The position numbers and the translations under genes were made by a program. From contig CM034546.1 in assembly GCA_020055645.1 (NCBI GenBank), positions 125,943,875-126,007,874 of the forward strand: a stretch of 64,000 bases of DNA, read 5' to 3'. Numbering within the stretch: the first letter of the stretch is position 1; the number at the start of each line of letters is the position of its first letter. Source of the DNA: Tomocerus qinae. Its lineage: Eukaryota > Arthropoda > Collembola > Entomobryomorpha > Tomoceridae. The notes under the pieces were generated by a model, which was not told where the DNA came from, did no database searches, and saw only the letters and a list, made by a program, of their open reading frames with translations. This document shows, one piece after another, positions 1 through 58,063 of the stretch.

Positions 1-1059
1 GGAGGACCATTTATTTTTGACGAACCCGTTTCCCATGTTGATTCTCGTGATTTTAATTGGAATGCCCTTCGAGAGTACGTTGAAAAGGGAACAGGACCAT
101 TCAGTGCGTTGGGCCTGCCAGTGGGATCCGCTTTATTATCTTCTTCTCAAGCTCCAAAAAATTGGCCGGACATCATAATATTTGTGCATGGAAATGGCCC
201 TTCGTCGGAATTTGGAAAGTCGACGGACTCTCTCTTTTCCTTCCCCAACAACGTCCTAGAAAAATTGTACGAAAAAGATGAAGGACGCGATGGTAATATT
301 CCGACGATTATGCTCGGTCGTCCAAAGAGTCGAGGGGAGATTCTTTTGAAAGATTCCAATCCACTTTCCCGTCCTCTAATTAACCCGGTTAGGCCATATG
401 GCGACCACCCTGATGATTTTTCCAGATTAATTGAAGGTTTTGTTTTAAAATATTTGAGATTTTTGGTTAATTAAATATAAATTTTGATTTCGAATTAATA
501 AATTATTTTTTTCTTTTCACTTAGCTCTTAACTACACTCTTAATATCTATGAGGGTACTTCGGCTTATGCCAAATTGGGCGCAAGATTATCTGCACATCA
601 CTTACCTGGCTGTGAACAATTTGAATTGCGAAGTTATCCGTACTGGGAGTGTCTTCTTAAGCTGGTTAATTTCTCTGGTTTCCATCCCTCCTCCACCTGC
701 TCCATGGGAAAACCTGGAGATCCAAATGCCGTTGTCGATTCTCAGCTAAGGTTAAACTAAACATTCTTCCTTTCGAATTAATTTTGTGAAATGAAATCTT
801 GAAATTTTCCTAATAATGTTACGGGAATTATAATAATAAACTCCTTGATCATTTAGGTTGTTATTCAATAGTAAGTAAATAATATTTAAATGCTTTTGTT
901 TTAAATTTAAATAGAGTTTTGGGCACTGCCGGACTTCGAGTAGCGGACGCTTCGATTATGCCGTTTATTACCAACGCTAATCTAAATGCTCCTGCTATTA
1001 TGATTGGAGAAATGTGTGCTGAAATGATCATGCAGGACTGGGCCACATTTAAAAAATAA
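1..1059 (+). CDS. GMC oxidoreductase copy A, 3' end only
   Basis: This is the C-terminal part of an FAD-dependent GMC oxidoreductase, cut by the window start. Three exons are visible: 1-436 (rest of exon 7), 525-750 and 915-1059 (TAA stop). Splice phases match all complete copies downstream. Exon 7 carries the family block [17 protein letters not shown]. Exon 8 carries the active-site His in [10 protein letters not shown]. Exon 9 carries the [20 protein letters not shown] block, whose Asn is the expected second active-site residue. The exon 7/8 junction codes Ala where most copies have Gly. Its closest relative is copy B, including in the introns and the 3' flank, so A and B are a recent pair. 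The substrate is unknown; insect members oxidise sugars, alcohols or steroids. Confidence 0.93.
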
Positions 1060-1073
1060 AAAGATTGGAGTAC

Positions 1074-2170
1074 TGTTACCCGCTTTGAAGTTTAGCCTTC
1101 CTATCCCCAAGTTGCATAGCGATACGCATTCTGATTGGTTGATAATTTTTGAAATCCTGCAATCTGATTGGTTATTTCTATGACAAAAATTCTATAGGTT
1201 ACCTAAATGGGGACACATTTTCAAAAATTATGAAATTGTTGCAAAACTCAACCAAGTCATATTATGAATCATCTGAATGATCTATTTACCTACTACTTTC
1301 CCTTTCAATGTACACATTTATGAGAATGGTGAATCGAGCTATTTATATGCACAATATTATGCAATTATTTAACTATGACTCTGGTACAAGTGAACAATCG
1401 GTACTACTTTATTCCAATTTATTACCAAATAAAGGTTATATATAATATAGGTCGGTTTGAAGATTAATATCATTCAGTACTGTGTTATAGTAGCGTAGAA
1501 CAAAATATCAATAAATCATTAAGATCCATCTTTTTTCATTTCAGCTGTATTATTTAGCCTAGGAGTCCTTTTGACCTGGATTCGACGAAAATTAAAAGTT
1601 AGTCGCCTGAGTGTCATTGAGGAGTTGTCCAAGAAAGGTTACAGTCAGCTCGCAAATACTGATGAAGCATCAGCTTCTGAGACAGTGTAATCTGATTGCT
1701 TCTACATATTTATAGAGATCGAATAGTTAATTAATGTTGTGTAAACATATTTTCTAGAATACAGTGCAATTAACTAGTTAGTTACATAGTTAATTCTAAA
1801 TGCATTTACCTTCATGTGGTAATAAATTGGAATAAAGTAGTACCGATTGTTCACTTGTACCAGAGTCATAGTTAAATAATTGCATAATATTGTGCATATA
1901 AATAGCTCGATTCACCATTCTCATAAATGTGTACATTGAAAGGGAAAGTAGTAGGTAAATAGATCATTCAGATGATTCATAATATGACTTGGTTGAGTTT
2001 TGCAACAATTTCATAATTTTTGAAAATGTGTCCCCATTTAGGTAACCTATAGAATTTTTGTCATAGAAATAACCAATCAGATTGCAGGATTTCAAAAATT
2101 ATCAACCAATCAGAATGCGTATCGCTATGCAACTTGGGGATAGGAAGGCTAAACTTCAAAGCGGGTAACA
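1074..2170. mobile_element. Foldback DNA transposon, 353-bp inverted arms, GTAC duplication
   Basis: Two near-perfect inverted arms (1074-1426 and 1818-2170) begin TGTTACCCGCTTTGAAG and enclose a 391-bp centre. GTAC flanks both ends (1070-1073, 2171-2174). The paralogous 3' flank of copy B has a single GTAC followed by the same sequence (9043 onward), so this is an empty site and GTAC is a 4-bp target duplication. There is no transposase. The superfamily is not assigned; several superfamilies make 4-bp duplications. The centre holds a spliced-exon-like coding segment. Confidence 0.9.
1545..1690 (+). pseudogene. Captured last exon of a single-pass membrane protein
   Basis: A pyrimidine-rich tract and acceptor TTTTTTCATTTCAG precede an open segment of 47 codons ending in TAA. 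It has a hydrophobic stretch (VLFSLGVLLTWI), then a basic stop-transfer run (RRKLKVSR) and a polar tail with SVIEELSKKGYSQL and a Ser/Glu-rich end. This is the layout of the C-terminal exon of a single-pass membrane protein with a short cytoplasmic tail. It lies wholly in the centre of a foldback transposon and has no upstream exons nearby. I infer a transduplicated host exon. The parent gene is not recognised. Confidence 0.55.
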
Positions 2171-2174
2171 GTAC

Positions 2175-2545
2175 AAAAAATCTTAAGTATACATTCCAAG
2201 TTAGGAAATAAAAACAAACTAAAACACTTCCCTTTATGTAGGCAGTAAGCAATTCAGGTTCAAACAGCGCAGATAACAAAGTGGCCTGAATGTATAGATA
2301 TCCACTACGTAGTGTAATTGAATGAAAAATGCAATGGGACTGCATCAATGGATAGCATTGAAAGGGAAATCCGTTCAACAGGCACGTACAGTGTGTGGAC
2401 ATAGAAATAATGTAAGTGTAACATAGCAATAGAGCAAGTAAGATAGGATCTTGAGTGCATTGTACTTTTTGTTGTGGTGTTTGTATTGCATTTAGTTATA
2501 TTTACAGAAGGACTAAGACGTAATGGGTGGAAGTGATTCAAGTAC
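2175..2545. repeat. Copy A 3' flank, paralogous to copy B 3' flank
   Basis: The sequence after the foldback element aligns with 9047-9440 downstream of copy B, including the ACTACGTAGTGTAATTGAAT stretch in both. Homology resumes at 3144-3240, where it matches 9440-9525. This flank therefore duplicated together with the A/B gene pair. No coding potential is supported. Confidence 0.8.
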
Positions 2546-2553
2546 ATTGGAAT

Positions 2554-3143
2554 CAGTGTACAAAATACCATTTACCACTTACCAGTGGTAAGTGGTTTTT
2601 AATGGTATTTAACGTTAAATACCACTACCTAAAAATAGTGGTAAGTGGTATAAATGGTAAAAATGGTAAGAAATAGTTTCATTTAAATTTCGTGTTTGAA
2701 TTTTGAACAAAATTCGGGGGCAAAGTACGAAATAGCTTAGCAGATGATCATTGTTGTCACAAATTGATAAGTGTTCATTAATCAGAGTAGGATTCAACCA
2801 ATGGGGGCGCTAACAACCCTTGCCGATTGAGAAATTAATTGCAATTAAATTAGCATCTATTTTAAATGGGCGATACCAAATACAATCTTTCTTTCTTCAT
2901 TTTTTATAACTTTTGGTGTACAATCAAATAAATATGATTAATTTAATTGGTGATATTGGAAATATTTCATAGAAAACAAAGTTTTAAAACTTATATTTTA
3001 GGAAGTCTAGTGTATCTGTACTCAGCTGTCTAATGAATCGCTAAAATTTACCATTTTTACCATTAAATGCATTTTTACCATTAAGTGCATTTTTACCACT
3101 GTGATGGTAAAAAAGGCTAAAAAGTGGTAAATTTTGTACACTG
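2554..3143. mobile_element. hAT-type MITE, family 1 copy 1
   Basis: The 590-bp element has termini CAGTGTACAAAAT and ATTTTGTACACTG and is flanked by a perfect 8-bp duplication ATTGGAAT (2546-2553, 3144-3151). The copy B flank (9436-9443) has ATTGGAAT once, which is an empty site. CAGTG ends and 8-bp duplications are hAT hallmarks. The inside is rich in ACCATT/ACCACT subterminal repeats and has no transposase. A second copy lies at 14334-14906. Confidence 0.93.
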
Positions 3144-3246
3144 ATTGGAATTCCCACAAAATAAATTCTAAATAGGGCAAACATTAAGAATTAATTATTG
3201 TTATTAATTTAAGATTACTAAATGGCAGTTTGTACTTACCTATAAT

Positions 3247-3868
3247 GAGTGGTATGATTAAGGTCTACCTTATGCTTTTACTTAAAGTTTTTGAAGTAAA
3301 AGGTTCCTTTGGTATGAATAAAAATATTAGCAATTACTTTTGCTTATGCTTAATCTAGGAGTAAAAGTATTTGCTAATTTGCATGAAGCATTTACTACCG
3401 TTAGAAGTAAATACTACATTTTGGTATGAATAACACCTTGAATTTACTTCTACTTTGAGTATTTGATTCAAAAATTTGAAGTTTCTCCGATAGCAACTTC
3501 ACCTATTACTTCCCCACGCAAAAGAGTAGGATTAGTAGGATTCACGATTAATTTTCTATAGTAACTCATACATAACTCTGACCGGTTACTTATAACCATG
3601 ACCACGAAATTGCATTTGTGAATTGAAGAATATATAGATGTGATTCGTTGCTGGTCTCTGATTGGCTGAGTCATAGTAACCAAATTTTGTTCTGTACAAA
3701 ATGAGAAGTAAATACTACAATTGCAAAGTATTTGCTTGACAGTAAAAGTTTTCTTTTATTCATTCGATTTGAAGCAAATACTTTTGCTTCTACCTTTTAC
3801 TTCAAGTCTAGACCTTTTACTTATACTTTTTGCTTTGTAGTAAATACTTATTCTTATTCATACCACTC
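3247..3868. mobile_element. Non-autonomous TIR element, about 622 bp
   Basis: Imperfect 16-bp terminal repeats (GAGTGGTATGATTAAG against the reverse complement of the right end, 15 of 16 matching) bound an AT-rich interior full of AGTAAATACT-like motifs. AAT is present on both sides, a possible 3-bp duplication. The block is missing from the paralogous copy B flank near 9525. No coding capacity; superfamily uncertain. Confidence 0.65.
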
Positions 3869-3960
3869 AATAACAGGAGAATGATTTCCTATCGATTAAG
3901 AAGGCTCTCCACACACGCCTGCATAGCAACCACAGCATATCTAAATTCATGTTAAAAAAC

Positions 3961-4281
3961 GTTTTACATCTGGCTTTATTCTTCCTGAAGGATAAGTCCG
4001 ATTTTTATGGGACTTACATTTTTGGAATCCTGGACTATCGAGAAACACACGAGGGTTTTTGGATTTTTGATATCGTTGACTTAGATCGTGCAAAAAAAAT
4101 CAACATATAAAAACTAAAACGGATTCACTTTTCTTTGGGATTGGATTTTTAAAAGCATTTAAAGCAATGACATCAAAAATCCAGCAACCCTCGTGTGTTC
4201 TCGATAGTCTAGGATTCCAAAAATGTAAGTCCCATAAAAATCGGACTTATCTTTCGGGAGGAATAATGCCAGATGTAAAAC
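3961..4281. mobile_element. Foldback element upstream of copy B
   Basis: The left arm (3961-4081, GTTTTACATCTGGC...) and right arm (4172-4281, ...GCCAGATGTAAAAC) are inverted copies of about 110-120 bp around a 90-bp centre. Target duplications could not be read with confidence. No coding sequence. Confidence 0.75.
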
Positions 4282-5163
4282 ATTTGCCAACATTTACGAC
4301 TGCCACTGTTGTAAACATACAAAACAATATTTTCAATTCTTGGAATATTTTCCGATTTCTAAATTCCATCCTTAGAATTTTCACCAACTTTGGTTTTTCT
4401 ACCTCTGAAGCCTAATTAAATTAAATTATTCACAAAATTATATATTTTAGGATTCGCTTAATTGAGTAGGTTAGGTTAGGAACAAATATATTATTATAGT
4501 ATTTTATTACTTGGAGTATAATTTTTTTTAATCCGTCCATGAAATTGGCTAAAAAGGATTAGGTATATAGGGTTACCTTGATATTTTAATGCTGTACTGT
4601 ACACTGTGCAATAGCGCTATGCCCTTCCACTAAAATGGTAATGTGTTACGTGTTTAGTATGTATAATATGCACTTAGCCTTTAATTACTATTAACCCTGT
4701 AACATTTATAGTTTTATTTCAGTGTCAATACTAGTGTAGTATCAGGTAACAATTATTAATTATGCGTTCATAGATAATAAATAACTAATTTAAGCAGTTT
4801 TTCTAGTTTTTGTGAAACTAGATAATAAATTATGTCCATATCTCGGATAACTAAAACTAATAAATTACATAGTGGAATACTTATATCCGGCATAATGTAA
4901 ATTAATATACTGATAACGCAATGTTTGATAATAAAGATTAAAGGCAATATTTAATGTAAATTTTAGTTTGAGTTTGACATCCGAAGGACACTTTTGATAA
5001 TTTATGTTCTACTGATTTTAATAAGTATCATCAGAAAAATCTATCTTATTATTACTTTGTATCTCAGTTAATTCATAGAAACGGCCATCTTAACATCTAC
5101 TCAAAGTATAGAAATAGTAACACAGTAAATCCACAAAATTTTGATTTCTAAAGACTACTTAAA
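4282..5163. other. Non-coding spacer 5' of copy B
   Basis: AT-rich sequence with no supported gene. It presumably holds the promoter and 5' leader of copy B, but no convincing TATA box or initiator can be fixed. Confidence 0.5.
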
Positions 5164-8100
5164 ATGAGTTCTTTAGCGGTGGCTACGACGGCCGCCGTTC
5201 CGTTGGCTTTTTTCATAGCTACTTACGTGCCACTTTTAATAGCATCGGTCGCGTCTTACATGAAAGAAATGGATTTCCTATCTTCTGGATTAAACCTTCC
5301 AATAATTACTCTCAATGAAGATGAAAACACTTACGAGTTCATAGTCGGTGTGTAATTTAAATAATTTAATTGTAATTCACAAATTTAATTCAAATGGTGT
5401 ATTAATTTAACTAATTATTATAAACTTAATTAATATTTTGTTTCTGTATAGTTGGAGGAGGTTCAGCAGGAGCTGCAGTTGCATCCCGCCTTTCGGAAAG
5501 GTATCGGGTACTACTAATCGAAGCCGGAGGAGATCCATCTCCGTTCTCGGATATTCCTTATTTATCCGGTTTGCTTATAGATCAACCCTTAATAGACTGG
5601 CGCCATCAAAGTTGCCAAACTTCACTCAACGCTTCGAATTTTATTGAGCAGACGGTATTTCTAATTTTACTATAGTACAGAATAGTCTATGTAATTTAGT
5701 TCTACAAAAATATAATTTATTTAAAAAAACATTTTTAGTCTTTTTGAGAGAAAATTTTCAGGTTTCTAGGAAAATAGGTTTTTTAAGAATTGTTAACAAT
5801 AAATTAATTTTCTAAAGTGCCGAAAAATACCGAGAGGAAAATGTTTGGGTGGCTCAAGTGTCTTGAATTGGATGGCTTATATGAGAGGGAATCCTGAAGA
5901 CTATAACAATTGGGCCGTCCACACAGGAGACAGTCGATGGTCTTATGCCAATGTGGAAAGAGTTTTTCGCAAATTAGAAGACTACGACGGACATTGGAAT
6001 GGCAATGGTATTGTCATCGTGAGAAAACTTCTAAGTACAGGAGCGTATACAACCCATTCACGCTGACTAAATTCAACCATTTCAATACTTTACACAGCGT
6101 AAATGGGTTGAATACCCTCCTGTACTTAGAAGTTTGCTCACGGTAACAATAACGATTAACTAAAAAAACTATACATTTTGTACCAAATTGTTAGAAATAA
6201 TATTCTTCAGGTTTACATGGAGTTGGAGGTCCTATTCACATCGAAACAGTCACATTTGCACCCTCTGGAGACTATTGGCTACAGGCTGGTACAGAGCTAG
6301 GTTTTGAAGTTAATGACCCTAATGGCTATCAAACTCAAGGTATGTGGAAAACATGAAAACGCAAAAATTATTATTATAATTATTTACTCTATCTATTTTT
6401 TGCTTTATAATTTGTTGTCTGATAACTCCAAGGATTTAATCCCATTGAAGTGACACAAAAGCGAGGCATGAGGTTTAGCACCTACAAAGGATACATTGAA
6501 CCAGCACTGAATAGAAGCAATCTAATTATTCATCGCTTTTCGTTGGCTACTAAGGTTGTCGTTTTTAAAATAAAATAAATTCTTTTTAAAATTAAAATAT
6601 ATTTTCAATATTTTAATAATTATTATATTTTTGCCTTGAAGATACATTTTGACGTCAATCTTCGTGCTGTTGGAGTGGAATATCTCCGTCACGGGATTCC
6701 CAAATATGCACAGGTGACAAAAGAAATTGTTATCAGTGGAGGAGCAATAAATTCGCCTCAATTACTCATGCTTTCTGGAATTGGACCCAGGCATCACTTA
6801 ACTCAACACCAGGTTTAATTATTTTAATAACTTTGAAAAAATATCTTACATTTATTTAACTTTATTATAATAAGTATAATAAATAATTATGTACTCCTTT
6901 TTTACAAAAAGAAAGTTACTATTTTTTTACAAAAAAGTAAAATGTTACTCCTTTTTATACAAAAAAGTAAAAAGTTACTATTTTTTTACAAAAAAGTAAA
7001 ATGTTACTCCTTTTTTACAAAAAAAGAAAAAGGTATTCCTTTTAAAAAAAGTAATAAGATACTCCTTTTTTACAAAAAAGTAATAAGATACTCCTTTTTA
7101 CAAAAAAAGTAATGACATCCCCCTTTTTTACAAAAAGTAATGAGATCCCCCTTTTTTACAAAAAGTAAAATAGTACTCCCTTTTTAAAAAACATTTAAAA
7201 AAGTACTACTTTTTTTTTAAAAAAAAGTCCTTTTTACCTTATTTGCATGTAAAGTAGAAGTAAATGGAGCACGCTGCTACATCTAAAAAGGTAAAAAGGC
7301 AAAAAGGGACTGCTTTTTTATCAGTTAATTCTACCTTTTATATAAAAAGTAGTAAAAAGGTTCTTTATTGTTCCCGGCAAGATGCCTCGAATTTGTCACT
7401 CTATAGTAACGCATTTGTTTAATATCAACTCCATTACAAGGTGAAGACATAGAGGGGGTTTCCCGGATTTTTGCACCCAATCCGTATTTACTTTCTACCA
7501 CAGAGAGGTAGGCACCCAAACCAAATAACCATGGTTACTTTCGGCTTGGGTGTTTACTTCTCTGTGGCAGTGTAGGTAGAATTCGAATTGGGTGCAAACT
7601 CGGGGAATATCCTTCTATGTCTTCACCTTGTAATGGAGGCATCTTGGTTCCCGGTATAATTCACAATTTAATTAACATCTAAGCATAAAGTTATATTTTA
7701 ATTCAGATTCCAACGTTGGTGGATCTTCCTGTAGGACAAAACTATCAAGATCATTTAATTGTATTTGGAGGACCATTTATTTTTGACAAACCCGTTTCCT
7801 TTGTTGCATCACGTGATTTTAATTGGAATGTACTTCGAGATTACGTCGAAAAGGGAACAGGACCATTCAGTCGGATAGGAGTGGGAGCGGGAACCGCTTT
7901 TTTGTCTTCTTCTCAAGCTCCAAAAAATTGGCCAGACATCGCAATATTTGTGAATGGAAATGGCCCTTCGTCGGAATTGGGAAAGGCGACTGACTCTCTC
8001 TTTTCCTTGCCCAACAATGTCCTAGAAAACTTTTACCAAAAAGATGAAGGACGCGATGGGAATGTTCCGATGATTATGCTCGGTCGTCCAAAGAGTCGAG

Positions 8101-8996: not shown

Positions 8997-10326
8997 AGCG
9001 ATTGGAGGTCTCATATGCACGGTGCAAAGTAGAAATGTAGGAGTACAAAAAATCTTAAATGTACGTTTTAAATTAGGAAATAAAAACAAACTCAAACATT
9101 TTCCTTGCACTTCCACTTATGAAGGCAGTAAACGATTCAGGTTCAAACAGCGCAGCGTAACAAAGTTAAGTGACCTGAATGGAAGGTATATATATTTATC
9201 CACTACGTAGTGTAATTGAATGAAAAATGCAATGGGATTGCATCAATAGATAGCATTGAAAGGGAAATCCGTTTAACAATGGCCATAAAAATTATTGAGT
9301 AGTGTAATATAATGGCAATAAAGCAAGTAAGATAGAATCTTGAGTGCATTGTACTTTTTGTTGTGGTGTTTGTAGTGTATTTAGTTATATTTAAAGAAGG
9401 ACTAAGACGTAATGAGTGGAAGTGTCTTAAGTACATTGGAATTCCCACAAAATAAATTCAAAATAGAGCAAACATTATTAATTGTTATTAATTAAAGATT
9501 ACTAAATGGCAGTTTGTACTTAATAACAGGAGAGTGATTTCCTATCGCGTGATTAAAAAGAAATAAAACAAATATTGACGTATCCAAATCTAGAATAAAG
9601 GTTAAAAGAAATTGTTTAGAAGTTAATAGATAATTAGTAGTAATTATTTTAAGCTATTTAAATGTTTAACCCTGGTATGGTTTTTACACATATTATGTAA
9701 TTAAAGATTACTAAGTAGCAATTTGTACTTAATTATGAGTTTTAATTTCCTTCCATTGCGTGATTACAACGATGTATCCAAATCCAAAATGAAGTTGGAA
9801 AAAATTAATTAAATAGTATAATCTGCCGTAATCCCCTAACGTGGCTAAGCCTAACCTAAACTAAAATAATCCTACCCATGTAAATATATACTCCCAACGG
9901 CAGTCTCATTTATAACTATGTCATATTAATTCCAAGTCGTGGAAAACAATAGAAAAACCTTTTAATCGCATAAAAAATTATTGATAATTAGTCTGAACTA
10001 AATTTACTTTACTTGCAGACAGACCACAAATTCACATTAAAGAATTGGTGCACTAAGGCATGGCCATTCATTGCAATACAAATCTGTCGCCGTGCCAGTC
10101 GCTGATTTAATAGGAAAGTGGCACTATCAAATATAACGTTTAAACGATGAGGTACTTTATTATACAAGTTAACACTTAGAAGGAGAACAATTCATGTACA
10201 AAAATATTTATTTTATCTGTTAAAAATACCAAAAACAATTCAGTAATTGTACAAACGGCCGGAAAAAGGTTATCCAGCACTAATTTGAAATAAATTAAAA
10301 GTTGTTTAATTGTGGGGAAGGTGACA
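8997..10326. other. Spacer between copies B and C
   Basis: The first 530 bp are paralogous to the copy A 3' flank and hold the empty sites for the insertions at 1074 and 2554. The rest is AT-rich, with no supported gene or clear core promoter. Confidence 0.6.
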
Positions 10327-22800: not shown

Positions 22801-25800
22801 GCTAAATTGTATTCTTTTTATTTATTCTTTTATTTCAATTTTATTTTAATGTTCTTTAATTCAAAATTAGAGCTAGCATTAAAACATCATGGAATTGGAG
22901 GTCCTATGCGTATTGAGCCTATTGGGTATGCACCGACTCTCAATAATTTTTTGGATGCTGGAAAAGAATTAGGATTTGATGTTAACGATCCCAATGGGTA
23001 CCAGACTCAAGGTTAGTTCATGAAAATGCAAAACAAACAAAATCAAACTACAACTAGCAATGATTAAACCGTACAACCGTAGATTAAAATAGTTAAAATG
23101 GACAAGATTCCAATTTATACATTTAATTTCAGGATTCAGCCCAGTTGAAATGACTCAAAAGAGAGGTACGAGATTCAGCACGTACAGAGGATACCTTGAA
23201 CCAGTGTTGAAACGGGAAAATCTAGTTATCCACAGATATTCTTTGGCTACTAAGGTTAAAAAATTTTATTCTTAAAACTAAACTTATGCGGATCTGTTAA
23301 TTTAACAGATTTTTTTCATAGATACATTTTGACATACATCTGCGAGCAGTTGGAGTGGAATACCTCCGACATGGAATTCCAAAATATGCCCGGGTGACTA
23401 AAGAGATTGTGGTCAGTGGAGGGGCAATTAACTCACCTCAATTGCTAATGCTTTCAGGAATTGGACCCAGAGAACACTTAACCCATCATCACGTAATACT
23501 TTTAACATACAAAATACAAAAAAATAGGAAAAGAACTAAACACCTGGAGAAATATAAAAGAGAATACAAACTAAAAACAAAAAACGAAGTGCAATATTTC
23601 ATTTTTCAAGAAAAGTATCTTGAAATAAGAAATTAATGTTATGTCTGATACAAACTAAATTGAAAATCTAGAAAACTGAATATTACCGTCTAAAACTGAT
23701 TTCTTTAAAAACAGGAAGACATTACAGCCAGTTGAAAATATTGATTTGAGTGGAAATAAACATAATTTCAAAAGTAATATTGTTTGCCAACAAAGTCTCA
23801 AATGCAAAATGAGTATTAACTACCAAAACGAATAGAAAATCAAAATAAAATAATATTAACTCCTATCAAACTAAAGAAATTTAAAATAAAATTTTGACCA
23901 CCAAAAGAACAGATAGAAAATAATGTAATTTTTGGACCATGAAAATGATAAAAAATTCAAAGTAGATTACTATTGAGCATAAAATTATTCAGAAGATCAA
24001 AATAATGTAATTTTGACTACCAAATTGAATAGAAATTCAAAATAGATTTAAATAATTTCTGGTTTCAGTTCATTTACCATCAAATTTCAATTTTGGTATT
24101 ATGAAATATTTCGTAATTATGGGTCAATGGTAGTAAATCATCTTTTGAAGATATTAATTTTATTTTGAAATTAGATTCCAACGTTGGTTGATCTTCCTGT
24201 GGGAAAAAACTATCAAGAACATGTTGCAGTGATCGGAGGACCATTTGTTTTTGACAAAGCAGTCTCTCATGTTGCATCACGAGATTTGAATTGGGGCGCT
24301 GCTAGAGAATACTTAGAAAACGGAACGGGACCATTTAGTACAGAGTTTAGCATAATCGGCCAGTTCATGCTATCTTCTTCCCTAGCTCCAAAAAATTGGC
24401 CAGACATTCTTATAACTCCATTACCAACACCCTCTGCAGCTGTTGGTCGAGGATTTGACGAAGTATTTTCCTTGCCGAATAATCCCCTTGAAAGACTTTA
24501 TACCAAAGAAGAAGGAAAGGATGGGAATATTCCAGTTGTCATTTTGGGTCGTCCTAAGAGTCGAGGAGAAATTCTTCTGAGAGATTCCAATCCACTATCC
24601 CATCCCCTCATCAACCCTTTTAAAAGACACGGGGACCACGTCGACGATTTAAAAAGATTGGTCGAAGGTAAAAAAACAATTTTTTTTAAACTAAAAAACA
24701 ATTTTCTGGAGTTTCTATTTCAAAAAATCCAGATCTGAAAGAAATTCAATTTATTTTCGTTGATTGCCTATGAAAAGTGAAATAATAATTAAATTAAGAG
24801 GAAGGGTTACCAAGTAACTTGACCTGACCTCGACTATCAAATTAGCCCTAAACTTTTTTTGCCAAATTGGAAACTCCTCCCAATACTGGTCGTAGAAAGA
24901 CAAGATTGGTCTCTAAATTCACAGAAAAACCTGGTTGAGGTCTGGTAATCAAATCTAATTCATATTCATCTCCAATTTCGAGATATTAAGGTTTTAATTT
25001 TAAATTCGCAATATCTCGAAATTGGAGGTGAATATGAATTAGATTTGATTACCAGACCTCGACCAGGTTTTTCTGTGAATTTAGAGACCAATCTTGTCTT
25101 TCTACGACCAGTATTCTCTGAGGAGTTTCCAGTTTGCCAAAAAAGTTTTTTTCAACCTTGTCATAGAGTAAATTTCTATGCCTCCATGCGAATTTAAATC
25201 GTAGTCATAGATACTTCCCCATCAAATTTATTTGACCTTTATTTATTGAATTCTCCCGTATTTTGTGTATACCTGACCCTTAAAGCTACCCCACAAATTC
25301 TGAGTTTCTTTCAATTTTTTTAGGTCTTAACTACACTGTTAATATTTACGAGGGTACTTCCACATATGCAAAGCTGGGAGCCAAATTATCACCACATCAC
25401 TTACCTGGCTGTGAACAATTCGAACTTAGGAGTTACGCATATTGGGAATGTGTGGCCAAAATAACGATGTTGGAGACTTTCCATTCCTCTTGCACTTGTC
25501 CTATGGGAAAACCTGAAGACCCAACCACTGTGGTCGACTCTCAATTAAGGTAATGGAAACAAAATTAGTTAACTTAACTTCAACAGTTATAAGACTCGTT
25601 AGCACAAGCCTAAATTCGAGAAAACATGATCGGGAAGGAGTTTGGATCCTTTTTACGATTGTTAAAAGTTCTTTAAGCTCAAAAATCAAATGTGATTTTG
25701 TAATTCTTAGAGAGTGGCCTTTAGAAATTTTTTGAAATAAAACTTTTTAAAAAGATTTCTTAACTTTTTTTTATTGAAAAGTTAAAAATCCATTTAGCAT

Positions 25801-42972: not shown

Positions 42973-45900
42973 ATGAGTTCATTAACTGCAATGGCAAGCA
43001 TGGGTTTGACCACGCCACTCCCATTGTCGTTTATTATGGCAATGACAACCTACGTACCAATTCTTTTTTTGTCCATTGCCACTTACATGCAGCAAATGGA
43101 TTACCTATCTTCTCAATTACATACACCAACAACCTTTGGCCAAGAAATTTATGATTTTATAGTCGGTAAGTAAGTGCAATTAATTCTCAAAATTTCTAAT
43201 TCTCAATTATCATTATTAGTCGCAATCTGTTGTAATAGCAGAATGAAAAAATTTTAAACAGTTGGAGGAGGGTCAGCTGGATCTGTAGTTGCGTCCCGTC
43301 TTTCCGAAAAGTACCGTGTGTTACTTCTGGAGGCTGGTGGGGACCCAAACCCCTTGTCAAACATCCCATATATGGCCCCAATGATGGCAAACCAATCTGG
43401 CGTAGACTGGCAATACCAAAGCTGCCAAAATGCTCGAACTCCATCTGGAAAAATAGAAAAAAAGGTTAAAATTTGTAATAGTAATTTAATTTTTGTTTTC
43501 TTTTTATTTTGCTTTAAATTAAAATTATTTTTTATTTTGCTTTAAATTAAAATTATTTTTTATTTTGCTTAAAATTAAAACTATTTTTTATTTTGCTTTA
43601 TATCAAATTAAGGTTTTATTTCGCTTTAAATTCAATTTATTTTTTATTGGGCTTTAAGTTAAATTAAATTTTTATTTTGCTTGAAATTAAATTTTTATTT
43701 TTATTTAATTATTATGAAGGTAACATTTGTGTCAATCTGTATGCATGTTGCAATGAGCTATTTTTTCCTGCAGTCTGCAGGTACTGCATATATTTGACAT
43801 TTGATAATAATTGCGGAAATGCTAGGTTGGTATTTGTGTTGGTTTTTTATTATAGGTTTGTAATTAAATAAGCGTCAAGTCATATTATAATGTAACCATT
43901 TAGCTTTAACATTAACCATCCGAAATCACTATAATTTTTATGTTGTGCTATAGTAAGTATGCAAGTCTTTATTCCTTTAGACATTCATTCATTGGGTTTA
44001 CTTCATGCTCGACTGAACTAGCCACATCATATTAGAAATGAATGTGTTTACCATTTCACTCAATGTGGGTAGACAGGCTTTGGTAATTAATTCTCAGCCA
44101 ACTGTGACTAATCGTTTCATTCAAATGCATTCGTGATAAAATAATGGTAATGTCTTTATGGATTACATGAAATTCGTGCATTCAAGAAATATTGTTTATG
44201 GTATTGGATTTTGGTATGGTATTGGAGGAAAATAAAAATGATGAAATATGAAACAAATAATAAAATAATGTATTTATTTTGAAGTGCCATTCTGTACCCA
44301 GAGGAAAAGGGTTGGGAGGGTCGAGCACCACAAATTGGATGATTTACATGAGAGGTAGTCCAGAAGATTTCAACAATTGGGCAGCTCATACTGGAGACAA
44401 TAGATGGGCATACTCAAATGTAGAAAGATTATTCCGAAAACTTGAAGATTACGACGGGAATTTTAAGGATGACAGTATTTTTTTTAATTTTTTAACTTGG
44501 TTAAATTTTGGCATTATTTTTTTTTCTTTTATTTTATTTTTATTTTTTTTCTTTTCTTTTATTTTTATTTTATTTTCTTTAATTTTATTTTATTTTTAAT
44601 ATTCTTTAATTCTCTTTCTGAAAAAATTAGAGCAAGCATTAAAACATCATGGAATTGGAGGTCCTATCCGTATTGAGCCTGCGAGGTACACACCTTCCGA
44701 CAACTACTTTTTAGAAGCTGGGAAAGAACTTGGATTCGACATAATTGATGCCAATGCAAATTATCAAACTGAAGGTGAATTAATTGATTAAAGAAAACTT
44801 TAATTAATTGGGTAAAATATACAAAAGTATTTTAATTGCAGGATTCAGTCCAGTTGAAATGACTCAAAAGAGAGGCACGAGATTCAGCACTTACAGAGGA
44901 TACCTTGAACCAGTGCTGAAAAGAAAAAATCTTGTTATCCACAGATATTCTTTGGCTACTAAGGTAAAAAATCTTCATTCTTAAAAGTAAACTTATTATG
45001 CTGATCTGTTAATTTAAAACAGATTTTTTCATAGATACATTTTGATATACATCTGCGAGCAGTTGGAGTAGAATACCTCCGACATGGAATTCCAAAATAT
45101 GCCCGGGTGACAAAAGAGATTGTGGTCAGTGGAGGGGCAATTAACTCACCTCAATTGCTCATGCTTTCCGGAATCGGACCCAGAGAACACTTAACCCATC
45201 ATCACGTAATGGCTTAGTTTAAATAGATATTTTACACACCTAAAATACCTTTTTAAAAAACTTTTTGATTTGAACTATTCTGTTTCAATAATGTTTAAAT
45301 TTCAATATATTTAATTTCTACTTATTATTATTGATCAAACACATTGTCAAATTTTAGTTAAATCTCAAGTTTTCAAGTCTTTGTCTTAAGGGTGTTTGGT
45401 AGCGGGGTAATTTGAGCTTACACTTTGTGTGTAGTACTTAGGATTAGAGTACAACCCGGATTTATTTACCAAAAAGTTGCGGAAGGTGAATACCTCGGAC
45501 TTGTGGTTCCGAAATATGAACATGTAACACGTTTTGAATTATAGCGTTAGCAGGACAACGTGATTTCCCGCCAACGCTATGATTCAAAACTAGTTAGAAA
45601 ATTCAAATTTTCCTGAGCCACAAATCCGAGATGTTCACCTTCCGCAAATTTTTGGAAATTTTGAAGACTTTTGGTAAATAAATACGGGCTATACTCCAAT
45701 CCTAAGTAATACACACAAAGTGTATGCTCAAGTTACCCCGCTACGAGTTACCCTTAAAAAGAAAAAGCATTAGTACAATATCATTACTAGGAAAATTTGT
45801 ATTTATATAAAATATAATTAATAACAATGATATAATTAACATAAATAATCATTTTTGCAGTCCAAAATAATTTCTTTAATTTATGTACAATTCAGATTCC

Positions 45901-48892
45901 AACGTTGGTGGATCTCCCTGTGGGCAAAAACTACCAAGATCATGTAGCTGTATACGGAGGACCATTTCTTTTTGACAAACCCGTTTCCCATGTTGATTCT
46001 CGTGATTTGAACTGGAATGCTGCTCGGGATTACTTGGAAGATGGAACAGGGCCATTCAGTATGGGAACCAGTTTAATTGGTCATGGCATTATATCTTCTT
46101 CCCTAGCTCCGAAAAATTGGCCAGATATGATCATAATTCCATTTGGAATTGGTCCTTCGGCAAGACAAGGACGAGGACTAGATAAACTCTTTTCCATCCC
46201 GAATAATGCCCTTGAAAGACTTTATGCCAAAGACGAAGGAAAGGATGGGAATATTGTAAGTATCTTTTTGGGTCGTCCAAAGAGTCGAGGAGAAATTCTT
46301 CTGCGAGATACGAATCCCCTTTCCCATCCTCTCATCAACCCTTTTACAAGACACGGCGACCACGTCGACGATTGGAAAAGATTGATCGAGGGTAAATTAC
46401 TTAGATCCAGCAGAATAATTAAATCAACTAATTCTGACTTTAATTATATTTTTTCAATTTATTGTCTGATGGTTTTAGGTCTCAACTTCACACTCAGTAT
46501 TTACGAGGGTACTTCCACATATGCACAGCTGGGAGCCAAATTATCGCCACATCACTTGCCTGGATGTGAACAATTCGAATTTAGGAGCTACGCCTACTGG
46601 GAATGTGTGGCAAAAATAACAGTTCTTGACACATTTCACTCCTCTTGCACCTGTTCCATGGGAAAGCCTGGAGACCCAACGACTGTTGTCGACTCTCAAT
46701 TAAGGTAAAACTGCATCTGCATCTTTCATCTATTAGATCTAAACTTCACCTCTATAAAGTTATGTCAGTTGGACCAAATTGGATTAAGTTGGACTAAATT
46801 GGTCTTAAGTTGGAATAAGCTGACTACGATAAACTACATTGGACTAAATTGGACTAAACCACGGAATTAGACTATTATTAATAGGTTAACCTGGAAGGAT
46901 AATGCTATAGGACGTAAAGTGACACAGTGCAGCTCTGAGTGCAGCTACAGATCAGGGTTGTGGGGCGGGTTTTTTATGGGTTGGGGTTTTTTGGGTTTTT
47001 TGGCAAAAAACCCACCCGCTTCACTTAAAAAACCCGGGGTTTATTGGGTTTTTTACAAAACATGATATAATGTGCACTAAAGCTCCATCTATATAAGCAA
47101 ACATACTAACTTTGTCATATTTCTATTTGAAAATGTAAACAAATGCATAATCAGGTGGAAACAAAATATTTAGCTTTTATACTATATATACTTGCAGTAA
47201 TTCTGTATCGTGATTCATGTGAATATATATAAACATCACGATCGTGATGTGATTATTTGTTTTATGTATATATTTTAATCGCCGTGAAGATATTGGTTTA
47301 ATCACAGTAGTTTGATCCCCATGGCTACTCCCCCACATACAGTAATGCAATACCCAAAATAACAAAAATTTTGCACCCAAGTTGGAGAAGCTCATGGCAT
47401 TGGCAATTTGGGTGTAGATTCTGCAAATTGCTGTTGCTATTAACTCCATGTGTTGGGCTGCCACCCAAGATCCCATTCAAAAATCGAAACTTGGGTGCAA
47501 AATTTTTGTTATTTTGGGTATTGCATTACTGTATGTGGGGGAGTAACCATGGGGATCAAGCTACTGTGGGTTTAATTAAATACAGGGCCGCAGCGAGGGG
47601 TGGGGCCGGGGGCCCGCCCCCCCCCCCGAAATCGAAGAAAAGAAAGGAATTTTTGCTTTAAAACCCAAAATATACTTTTATTTTTCAATTATTATTTGTC
47701 GGGCCCCTCCCGAAATTTTTTTCTGGCTGCGGCCCTGTTAAATAATTACCTTTTACTTACGAATTGCCAATGAATGCATAAGTGGAAACATTAATTATAC
47801 TGAATTTTAATTAATCACTTACATATTTATTACTGTACTGCTTTAAGCTCCATATTAATGAAGGAATTTCTTAAAGTCATTGTAATCAGTATTATATAAT
47901 AATACATAGTTTTTCACTAGTTGTTATCAAATATAGGTGCTCACGAAAAATACTGCGTGTTAACTGTGATAAAACATGTCAAAAATTAAATTTTTATGCC
48001 TTAACTTTTAATTTTACAGACGTAAATGGTAGTTTTAGGATTACATGGTTGTTGTTATTGTCAGCTGTAGTTTTCCTATGTATACTATAGTATAGGCTTG
48101 TATTTATGCCTATAATTATATGAAAAACCCTTAAACCCAAAAAACCCAAAAAACCCTAAAAAACCCAAAAAACCCGGGGTCGAGGGTTTTTTCCTAAAAA
48201 ACCCGGGTTTTTCGATACCTTGCTACAGATAAACAATTGTTGGTGGAGTAAAAGCTGCCCAGCAGCCAAATGGTCGTGGCGCAATCTCAAAATTCCAAAG
48301 ATAAAAATTCATGTGATTGCAAGCATAGTCTAAAGTTTGAAATCGCCCCACGACATTTGACTGCTGTGCAGCTTTTACGTTTATCTGTAGGTCTATGGCT
48401 GTTAGCGTGGTTTCCCAGTGGGTTGGACTAAACTAAACTAAAGTGGACTAATTTGAACTAAATTAAACTAAAGTCGAGTTTATTGGACTAAATTAAACTA
48501 AAATGGACTAAATTAAACAAAACTGTTCTAAATTGGACTAATTTAAACTAAATTAACCTAAACAGGACTAAATTAAGTTGGAATAAATGGGACTAGGTGA
48601 GTCTAAATTGGAATAATAATAAAGCAGGAGATGGTTTGAAACAGTTTGGGTTGAGATTTGTTTAATTCTTTATGCCTTGTTTATGACAATCGACGAATAA
48701 TGTTAAATGTAGCGAATATGAAAGCATTTTTTAAAACTTTTTTTCAGAGTTTTGGGCACTGCTGGACTTCGAGTGGCGGATGCTTCAATTATGCCATTTG
48801 TCACAAATGCCAACACAAATGCTCCTTCTATAATGATTGGGGAAATGTGTGCAGAAATGATCTTGCAGGACTGGAGCATATTTAAAAACTAA
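42973..48892 (+). CDS. GMC oxidoreductase copy H
   Basis: The last complete copy of the cluster, 629 residues. Exons: 42973-43165, 43262-43464, 44285-44474, 44631-44774, 44842-44963, 45035-45205, 45896-46391, 46479-46704 and 48748-48892. I chose ATG 42973 by the ATGAGT context of paralogues; an upstream codon at 42922 is in frame but not conserved. The FAD motif is [17 protein letters not shown], signature 1 is [19 protein letters not shown], and signature 2 ([17 protein letters not shown]) is intact. The active-site His is in [10 protein letters not shown]. Exon 4 is 15 bases longer than in most copies, as in sister copy E (12 bases). Intron 7 (87 bp) is a multiple of three without stops, so retention stays in frame. 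Introns 6 and 8 carry transposons. Exon 9 resembles the D/G type. Confidence 0.92.
45390..45753. mobile_element. TTAA-flanked palindromic element in copy H intron 6
   Basis: The 364-bp element is bounded by TTAA on both sides (45386-45389, 45754-45757). Its ends are GGGTGTTTGGTAGCGGGGTA and the reverse-complementary TACCCCGCTACGAGTTACCC. Subterminal inverted blocks (ACACTTTGTGTGTA, GCGGAAGGTGAA) make it a near-palindrome. A relative lies at 52783-53140. TTAA targets suggest piggyBac-type mobilisation, although the GGG start is not canonical. Confidence 0.83.
46763..46862. repeat. GGACTAAATT-type degenerate tandem repeat
   Basis: Loosely repeated TTGGACTAAA units occur here and again at 48420-48610 on the other side of the hAT insertion in copy H intron 8. 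The two blocks may once have been one array. Confidence 0.7.
47296..47572. mobile_element. Palindromic element nested in the hAT element
   Basis: Arms 47296-47382 and 47486-47572 are inverted copies sharing GATCCCCATGG, AGTAATGCAATACCCAAAAT and TTTTGCACCCAAGTT. They enclose about 100 bp. No coding support. Confidence 0.82.
47583..47747. mobile_element. 165-bp GC-rich hAT-type MITE nested in a hAT element
   Basis: The ends CAGGGCCGCAGC and GCTGCGGCCCTG are perfect inverted repeats, and the heptamer TTAAATA lies on both sides. CAGGG termini fit hAT; an eighth duplicated base may be lost. It is strongly GC-rich at the ends with a C-run. Confidence 0.85.
48252..48396. repeat. Palindrome in copy H intron 8
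   Basis: Opposed blocks AAAAGCTGC, CAGCAG, CAAATGGTCGTGG and CCACGACATTTG, CTGCTG, GCAGCTTTT form a roughly 145-bp hairpin next to the hAT right end. Confidence 0.65.
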
Positions 48893-50576: not shown

Positions 50577-54173
<3,597 letters not shown>

Positions 54174-55768: not shown

Positions 55769-58063
55769 ATGACTCTTTTAAGGTAAGCTTTTGTGTTTCT
55801 TATTCATTATTCATTTAAAATCTCTTAAAATTCATAATTTAGCTCCAGAAAATTACTTATGAATTTACCATATGCTTAAAGCCCTTTTGCTTTTTGATAT
55901 TCATTTTATTTTTTATAGTTCATATTTTTCAAGTCAATTATGAAGTGTTATTTGATTTCCGAAGTCAATGTTGAAATCCGTATTGTATTCTCTCCTACCC
56001 ATTTTAACAATAGTGTTCACTTTGTATTCCTCAATTTGCTTAGAATGGAATTGAAAATTTACTGATATTGTTTTGTTACCATTTGCAGATATCTATGTCT
56101 GTTACTATTCACGCTAGCGATAACAAGAAGTGAAGTAATAGTCGAAGAAGAGCCAACAGTAGAAGAGACAAACGTACCAAATAATCTTCAAGTTAACAAT
56201 TCTCCAGTAGTTGATGAGAAACTAGTAGAAGAACCAGTAAATGCAAAAACTGAAAATTCACCCGTCGTCGAAGACAAACCGAGTGTTCCAGTTGGAGAAA
56301 CAGAAAATTTGGTGGTAGCCAAAGAAAAGCAAGCAGACTCTGAAAATCAAAATGCAGAAATCGCTGAGGAATCTGAGAAATCCGAAACTCCCGCAAATGG
56401 CGTAAAATCTTCTCCCGTCTCTTCAGAAATTAAAGGCGAAAAGTCTACCGCTCCTACAAATTCTAACGGTAGCAAATCTCCTCCTCCTCCCGTCTCTTCA
56501 GGAATTAAAGGTGACAAGTCAACCGCTCCTACAAATCCTACAGGTAGCAAAGCTCCTCCTCCTCCCGCCTCTTCAGGACTTAAAGGTGACAAGTCCACCG
56601 CTAATGAAAGTTCTAAAGGTAGCAAATCACCCTCCGGTTGGTCATCTAATCGTCCTCCACCTTCCGGTTGGGGATCAAATTCTCCGCCTAATTCCGGCTG
56701 GTCTTCAAATCCACCTCCTAATTCCGGTTGGGAATCGAATCCACCTCCCAATTCCGGTTGGGGATCCAATTCTGGTCCAAACTCTGGTTGGGGACCCAAT
56801 TCTGGTTCAAACTCTGGTTGGGGATCCAATTCTGGTCCAAACTCCGGCTGGGGTTCCAATTCTGGTCCAAACTCCGGTTGGGGATCCAATTCTGGTCCAA
56901 ACTCCGGTTGGGGATCCAATTCTGGTCCAAACTCCGGTTGGGGATCCAATTCTGGTCCAAACTCTGGTTGGGGATCCAATTCTGGTCCAAACTCCGGTTG
57001 GGGATCCAATTCCGGTCCAAACAATGGTTGGGGATCCAATTCTGGTCCAAACTCCGGTTGGGGATCCAATTCCGGTCCAAACAATGGTTGGGGATCCAAT
57101 CCTCCTTCAGATTCTGGTTGGTCTTCTTCAAACTCTGGTTGGGACTCAAATTCTGGTTGGTCTGCAAAAACTTGCGCCTCCTACCCTGAATGTACTACTC
57201 CGGACAACAGCTGTTGCGAATGCAATCAGAATTTTGCAAAATGCTGTTCGGACTACTTCACATCTAGCAACGAAGGCTACTGCCAGTACGATAAATGCAG
57301 ACCTTGCAAAACCTCCGGGAGTTACTGTGTCAGTTCTAACCAATGCTGCAACAGCCAGAATCCAGATAGCCAGAATGTCACAACTTGTATGAACAACGTC
57401 TGCTGCGTGTCTCCAAGTTCTGCCGGATGCCATACCGACTCCGACTGTTGCCAGCCCTTGGACGCTATTTCAGGCTACCAATGCGATAATAAATATTGCA
57501 AACCCTGCAAGAAAAATCAACAGAGTTGTACATCGGATGCAGAGTGCTGTGGAGAGAACGAATGTGGATATACTTTGGACAATGATAGCAAATATGCGCA
57601 ATTCGGTATCTGTTGTATTAGCCTTAATTCCCCTTGCAGATTCAGTGTTGACGTTTGCTGTGATAGTTTTGAATGCACAACGCGGAAGCGAACTACTACG
57701 CCAAAAGGAACGGGAACCTACTGCGAGCCTGGCGATAATATTAACCCTGGCACTGGGTCAGGATGGGGATGGAGGAATTCTTTGACAGAAGACCCGGAGA
57801 AACGTGGATGGAGCAGCGGCGGATGGGGAAACCAAAATCAAACTAGTGGATGGGGAAATGGATGGAATTCTGGAAATAATGGATGGGGAAATGTCGAAAA
57901 AGTCCCACAGCAATATATTTGGGGAACTTGTAAAGAATGCAAGGATAAAGATGACACTTGTACAGCTGATTACCAATGTTGTTATGGATTATTGTGTGAA
58001 AATAAGAAATGTGCAAAGATATCAGACTCGCATCCTCAATGTGAACAGCCGGTAGGACGGTAG
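55769..58063 (+). CDS. Secreted Gly-Trp-repeat, cysteine-rich protein
   Basis: Two exons, 55769-55782 (14 bp) and 56089-58063, give a 662-residue product; the tiny first exon restores both an ATG and a signal peptide (YLCLLLFTLAITRS). Residues of about 20-120 are acidic with valine. About 120-188 have Lys/Ser/Pro repeats (GSKSPPPP, KGDKSTAPTN). About 189-365 are Gly-Trp repeats of ten residues (GWGSNSGPNS). About 366-560 are a cysteine-rich region with many CC pairs (SCCEC, KCCSDY, NQCC, DCCQ, ECCGENEC). A second Gly-Trp stretch follows (GGWGNQNQ, GWGNGWNSG), then a final CKECKD...CC module. No enzyme motif is visible. The layout suggests an extracellular structural, cuticular or secretion protein with disulfide modules; a defined function cannot be given. 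Confidence 0.85.
56746..57103 (+). repeat. 30-bp coding minisatellite (GWGSNSGPNS units)
   Basis: About twelve 30-bp units of the form GGTTGGGGATCCAATTCTGG plus TCCAAACTCC repeat in frame. They are nearly identical, with variation mostly at TCT/TCC and AACTCC/AACAAT codons. Because the unit is a multiple of three, other frames are also open across the array. Such homogeneity implies ongoing unequal exchange or slippage, so allele length probably varies. Confidence 0.95.

Follow-up and report, generated by a model that had tools for sequence, protein, structure and literature searches.

The element at positions 1073–2171 of the window is best explained, with a probability that we place at roughly 80%, as a passive remnant of a foldback transposon lineage whose ancestors carried a three-exon membrane-protein gene. 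The window is the whole stretch of DNA that was analysed (64,000 nucleotides, C1:125943875–126007874), and the genome searched comprised 334 Mb in 115 contigs.

Structure of the element and its insertion site

We identified an inverted-repeat foldback element at 1073–2171, composed of two 364-nt arms and a 371-nt loop. Including the adjoining TA, the inverted repeat spans 1070–1436 and 1808–2174 (367 nt, two mismatches). The original prediction was therefore correct that the arms are near-perfect, whereas their length, given as 353 bp, is 364 nt without the TA. The features of the element and its surroundings are as follows.

915–1059, plus strand: last coding exon of a GMC oxidoreductase gene (PF05199, E 3.1e-7; exon start estimated)
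1071–1072, no strand: left copy of the TA target-site duplication (TA on both sides in 24/29 two-ended copies; single TA in the paralogue)
1073–1436, plus strand: left arm, a terminal inverted repeat beginning CTGTTACCCGC (two mismatches in 367 nt against 1808–2174)
1131–1215, plus strand: conserved arm core, two ATTGG motifs and then TTTCTATGACAAAAATTCTATAG...GGGGACA (family comparison)
1437–1807, plus strand: loop separating the arms (inverted-repeat comparison)
1531–1544, plus strand: 3' end of the former last intron, acceptor AG, phase 1 (sequence; same acceptor in copy L024)
1545–1690, plus strand: terminal exon, termed exon B (homologous exon in family 2; genome matches)
1808–2171, minus strand: right arm (inverted-repeat comparison)
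2172–2173, no strand: right copy of the TA target-site duplication (copy flanks and paralogue)
2207–2212, plus strand: AATAAA, common to the paralogue at 9079 (paralogue comparison)
9044–9045, plus strand: paralogous empty site with a single TA (GGAG-TA-CAAAAAATCTTAA)

The 3' splice acceptor, 47 open codons and stop that had been predicted for the loop are all present within 1531–1690. The acceptor, which ends at 1544, is pyrimidine-rich and is followed by CT, the 47 codons (1547–1687) and TAA (1688–1690). The product of exon B features a short hydrophobic stretch, the sequence RRKLK and a tail with GYSQL and a C-terminal ETV. Exon B and its acceptor are all that remains of the gene in the window copy, which is without upstream exons.

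The element starts 13 bp past the stop codon of the GMC oxidoreductase gene (1057–1059), and we saw no evidence of a splice donor feeding exon B in this setting. The AATAAA downstream, which is also found in the paralogue, places the element within the gene's presumed 3' UTR. The paralogous site at 9044–9045 was described earlier as empty; it carries a single TA and its right flank is collinear with that of the insertion, but its left side is 36 nt longer, and it is thus an imperfect empty site.

The region around the insertion (window 1–49000) holds a tandem cluster of eight GMC-oxidoreductase gene copies, and ten matches to the last-exon segment were located there, some of them degenerate. 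This gene content, together with the introns, points to an arthropod genome. Beside the element, at 2546–3151, lies a second short inverted-repeat element with GGTAAAAATGGTA runs. Other strong inverted repeats at 24882–25115, 3949–4293, 47303–47568 and 45565–45757 (with 52779–52971) are perhaps other foldback or MITE-like elements. The window also contains minisatellites at 43446–43753 (28-bp) and 56572–57171 (30-bp), the latter within its GC-richest 2-kb stretch (45%). A tRNA scan of the whole window and an Rfam scan of positions 1–6000 returned no match.

Genomic copies and target-site duplication

Searching the genome with the DNA of the element returned at least 149 matching pieces from the best 40 of 435 candidates. 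Copies were retrieved from 40 places (L001–L040, window included), and 16 of these, again counting the window, are near-full (1.09–1.11 kb, 97–100% identity), so the predicted further copies with the same cargo do exist. Some share the arm-loop-arm architecture of the window element, others contain two inverted copies of the exon (L021–L024), and the rest are truncated, rearranged or nested. L023 (contig C12) and L024 (start of C2) represent the same insertion with identical flanks, which suggests redundant assembly.

Of the 29 two-ended copies, 24 are flanked by TA left and right (TA-C...G-TA), and in only five of the 24 does GTAC flank both ends. Based on this, the target duplication is TA, and GTAC, which had been proposed for this role, was ruled out. 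The arms, the dispersed copies, the TA duplications and the paralogous site together bear out the original identification of an inserted foldback transposon.

Seven matches to DDE_3 (PF13358) were found in the genome, none of them inside a long arm pair among the arm-core sites listed (of 392; see below). One long arm pair, at C1:100248374–100254964, spans 6.6 kb, and several others are lengthened by unrelated sequence. As candidate autonomous elements we rejected L041, which holds a LINE-like reading frame, L044, which holds Harbinger-like frames (both labels are our presumption from the look of the sequences), L043, which holds a tandem repeat, and L042 and L070, in which no transposase was recognised. 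No transposase was linked to the family among these arm pairs. The window element would be a type that is mobilised in trans.

The cargo gene

A protein search of the genome with exon B yielded 67 places at E values up to 10. L024 retains the 3' portion of a preceding exon (exon A, 2870–2996), which ends at a GTAAGT donor and is followed by an intact 96-nt intron (2997–3092) and exon B (3093–3238). Homologous exons A and B are found in family 2 (L045–L051); in L048 they occupy 1922–2134 and 2276–2457, respectively, and the intron matches that of L024 in both position and phase. Exon A, which carries a recurring cysteine pattern, is also present, whole or in part, in L053, L055, L056, L057, L059, L060, L065 and L069, and in family 2 it is 37–48% identical to that of other families. 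Exon B is a real exon, as some sister copies retain the exon before it together with matching phase-1 splice sites.

A further upstream exon (exon 1) was recognised on the minus strand of L056 (2738–2678), where it comprises a start codon, a signal-peptide-like sequence and a phase-1 donor; its acceptor is mutated in this copy and kept in L064 and L066. The signal-peptide-like exon of family 4 is a different one (in L057, L060, L065 and L059); its frame is shifted after 13 codons in L065, and its ATG is replaced by GTG in L059. The gene of exons 1, A and B, with both introns in phase 1, was thus pieced together from different copies, and in none of the copies examined were all three exons intact. 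This cargo is common to at least four diverged families, at about 35–70% amino acid identity. A common small repeat (GGCCGCAGC...) has integrated within or next to the cargo gene in L056 (about 2405–2045, minus strand), L057, L058 and L060; a DNA search with the part of L056 containing this repeat brought up 1717 first-look candidates.

The hydropathy maxima of the spliced forms fall in exon 1 and over the junction of exons A and B, from which we inferred a type-I membrane protein. The hydrophobic stretch of exon B is itself short, and the best 17-residue window of spliced L024 includes the end of exon A. Simple hydropathy applied to a composite of copies therefore suggests that the cargo encodes a three-exon type-I membrane protein. 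Searches of the exons against Pfam and PDB yielded no convincing hit, and neither exon A nor the spliced sequences matched a Pfam entry. An AlphaFold model of exon A was set aside (mean pLDDT 54.8, pTM 0.33). A trefoil-domain frame adjoins a transposon copy in L052 (2360–2581; PF00088, E 1.7e-8); it falls outside the element and was dropped.

Selection and decay of the cargo

Comparisons within families comprised 12 pairs, nine of which gave dN/dS values of 0.05–0.45. One pair (L058–L063) reached 0.91 over 31 codons, and two were without synonymous change (L001–L040, four non-synonymous differences; L057–L060, one). For exon B, tests gave 0.07 for L046–L047 (p=2.8e-5), 0.05 for L047–L048 (p=3e-8) and 0.23 for L046–L048 (p=7e-4). 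The values were 0.19 for L001–L038 (p=0.011) and 0.23 for exon A of L058–L024 (p=0.018), whereas L045–L048 was not significant (0.45, p=0.12). Five of the six tested pairs are thus at p below 0.02, although they share loci and hence are not independent. In these tests, synonymous differences exceeding the number of sites were set to that number, and the exon A pair L048–L063 was left out of the results. Synonymous sites are near saturation in most between-family comparisons.

The families other than family 1 were detected by protein search and are biased toward conserved copies; family-1 copies, found by DNA, thus provide the cleaner test of selection. In family 1, variants private to single copies number three synonymous and 20 non-synonymous, whereas those in at least two copies number six and five (p=0.033 against private variants). 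Among variants in at least four copies the counts are six and two, one of the two non-synonymous variants lying behind the common frameshift; random single changes would be synonymous in 24% of cases. This test used 30 of 33 exon rows, leaving out the second exons of L021 and L022 and the row of L023 (the L024 insertion), and disregarded codons 1–10 of L020 and L028, which are rearranged. The difference between shared and private variants indicates that the source was constrained and that the inserted copies drift.

The reading frame is broken in 15 of the 33 exon rows and open in 18, where L021 and L022 are counted twice, L023 and L024 are both counted, and rows that lost the stop or carry 6-nt insertions are taken as open. 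A single 4-bp frameshifting deletion in exon B is common to 11 of the 15 broken rows, from which it follows that the element can spread without an open frame.

Arm core and families

The arm core of approximately 85 nt, with two ATTGG motifs that we take to be inverted CCAAT-like, is 61–93% identical among the five family representatives compared. Its pattern occurs at 392 genome sites with up to three mismatches, as against none for a control pattern. The core could bind the transposase or act as a promoter. Families 1, 2 and 4 end in CTGT adjoining TA, and the third group has one such end, in L056. Arm matches between families are confined to roughly 70–200 nt around the core. Core identity and cargo identity are weakly correlated over 10 family pairs (rho 0.50, p=0.14), which leaves room for repeated capture or exchange of arms.

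Homologues without arms

Of the 29 stretches L045–L073, 25 contain arm sequence, which L055, L061, L064, L066 and L071 have on one strand only; none was detected in L053, L062, L067 and L068. L067 has an exon 1 (2697–2610), exon A (2504–2295) and exon B (2156–2093) on its minus strand and, in our reading, both of its introns are in phase 1, the same layout as in the cargo. A genome search with L067 exon A gave one strong match, to itself, followed by L053 (34% identity, E 0.015). Profile comparison of this exon with the cargo gave an hhalign probability of 96.3% (one pair, with no database correction). On these sequence comparisons, the single-copy, armless L067 is a distant homologue of the cargo, and L062 and L068 are further, weaker relatives. 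Among the armless loci retrieved, apart from L053, these three are about 31–32% like the cargo.

L053 contains an open exon A that is 59–69% identical to those of L056 and L055, and no recognisable arms were present in 5 kb. It is flanked on both sides by inverted pieces of exon B, so it is either an armless gene that has undergone rearrangement or an element that has been truncated. No close intact parent gene was found among the genome matches retrieved, and the closest clearly armless gene among these loci is about 32% identical to the cargo. Given that armless homologues exist, the cargo looks host-derived. The proposal of a captured membrane-protein exon thus proved largely right, with upstream exons now recognised in related elements, although a close parent did not emerge. 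That the open segment arose by chance, with neither parent nor selection, is contradicted by the upstream exons, the armless homologue and the synonymous bias of old variants.

Origin of the element and alternative explanations

We hypothesise that the window element is a non-autonomous, TA-inserting foldback transposon, the ancestors of which would have enclosed a host-type gene of three exons. Of these, exon 1 would have provided the start codon and signal peptide, exon A a cysteine-rich ectodomain, and exon B the transmembrane segment and a short tail. Purifying selection would have acted on the protein in source lineages as the transposon families diverged, and inverted rearrangements of arms and cargo would have trimmed the gene. 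The window copy, reduced to exon B and its acceptor, would be passive passenger DNA without function, subject to neutral drift, and a transposase acting in trans would have brought it to its place in the presumed 3' UTR of a member of the eight-copy tandem GMC-oxidoreductase cluster.

The original prediction had proposed for this element a portable exon trap, a mobile 3'-terminal exon that could be spliced onto the genes it enters and add a membrane anchor to them; in this reading the element is selected for this action or at least acts so. An acceptor, an open phase-1 exon and a stop are present, 18 of the 33 exon rows are still open, and the relevant passages of PMC8277862 report that Pack-TIRs of other animals form chimeric transcripts with the genes beside them. 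We nevertheless consider such a trap highly improbable, since 11 copies share the frameshifting deletion, private variants are neutral and the exon is not kept open by selection, the window element is positioned after the GMC stop codon, and the best membrane window of spliced L024 needs the end of exon A. The idea is thus unsupported, and the exon appears instead as the remnant of a longer gene. Quite unlikely, too, is an effect of the arms themselves, whereby transcription of the 3' UTR would produce a 364-bp dsRNA, which would silence the GMC gene or serve as a source of small RNAs. The near-perfect arms within the presumed 3' UTR fit this idea, which leaves the exon unexplained but is compatible with a passive remnant.

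The history of the cargo allows several readings. We tentatively hold, at somewhat below even odds, that a host-derived three-exon gene has been a long-term resident of the transposon, selected through its split into at least four families; with equal reserve, the small type-I membrane protein would then be the only conserved gene of the transposon, serving either the element or the host. It is possible, if doubtful, that one arm type instead repeatedly took different members of a host membrane-protein family, so that what is conserved between families would reflect the host genes. In favour of this, arm cores have diverged much less than synonymous sites, as between family 4 and L055 (core identity 93%, amino acid identity 42%, pS 0.84), and L053 is cargo-like yet without recognisable arms. 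Against repeated capture, the armless loci retrieved other than L053 (L062, L067 and L068) are only about 31–32% like the cargo, the restriction of between-family arm matches to the vicinity of the core fits old co-divergence with a constrained core, and shared variants are synonymous-biased within family 1 itself. An accessory gene native to the transposon superfamily would not sit easily with spliceosomal introns and a signal peptide, nor with an armless homologue in which both phase-1 introns recur; we regard it as unlikely, although a cargo present in at least four families with a common arm core and a synonymous bias is what it would predict.

If an old, multi-family cargo with a synonymous bias is confirmed, such cargo can persist under selection over long times, and it would offer a system for asking whom the cargo serves. 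The apparent exon trap could be understood as debris, produced as foldback arms grow inward over a gene and its last exon stays in the loop.

Comparison with known systems

PSI-type type-I proteins such as PTTG1IP consist of a signal peptide, a short cysteine-rich ectodomain, one membrane segment and a short tail. The cargo shares this architecture by eye, and its exons are without a Pfam match. The TA target-site duplication is characteristic of the Tc1/mariner superfamily. The window element has the same duplication; however, its arms are 364 bp long, and no Tc1/mariner transposase was linked to it among the arm pairs listed. In the relevant part of PMC8277862, the general features of Tc1/mariner elements are given as TA duplications and terminal inverted repeats under 100 bp.

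In its long, near-identical arms, short middle and many dispersed copies with a target duplication, the window element is of the foldback type. Long inverted arms, a variable middle and rearranged forms are also features of foldback elements such as Galileo and Tetris of D. virilis (PMC4079207). According to the report on Tetris, no transposase was found for it, its target-site duplications are 8–10 bp and its middle domain is without apparent coding capacity. The 8–10-bp duplication of Mutator-type elements, as in FB4 and Tetris, is not seen in the window element, which has TA only.

Literature searches returned no report of the window element itself. Its families feature an exon/intron gene segment between arms, as in Pack-TIRs, and the kind of element is already known from Ssk-FB4 of D. 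melanogaster, a foldback that carries a membrane-protein gene. From the pertinent passages of PMC8277862, Ssk-FB4 resembles the window element in being foldback-type and multicopy with an unknown transposase, and resembles its families in carrying a near-complete host gene, introns included, that encodes a small membrane protein. The same passages describe Ssk-FB4 as young and polymorphic, with a known parent gene and signs of positive selection, and with 9–10-bp duplications on which the authors assign it to MULE. Here, by contrast, the duplication is TA, the cargo is shared by several families that have diverged, the matches retrieved include no close parent, and the old variants bear the mark of purifying selection. 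The system described here therefore differs from Ssk-FB4 in depth, in how many families it spans, in its TA target and in the kind of selection seen.
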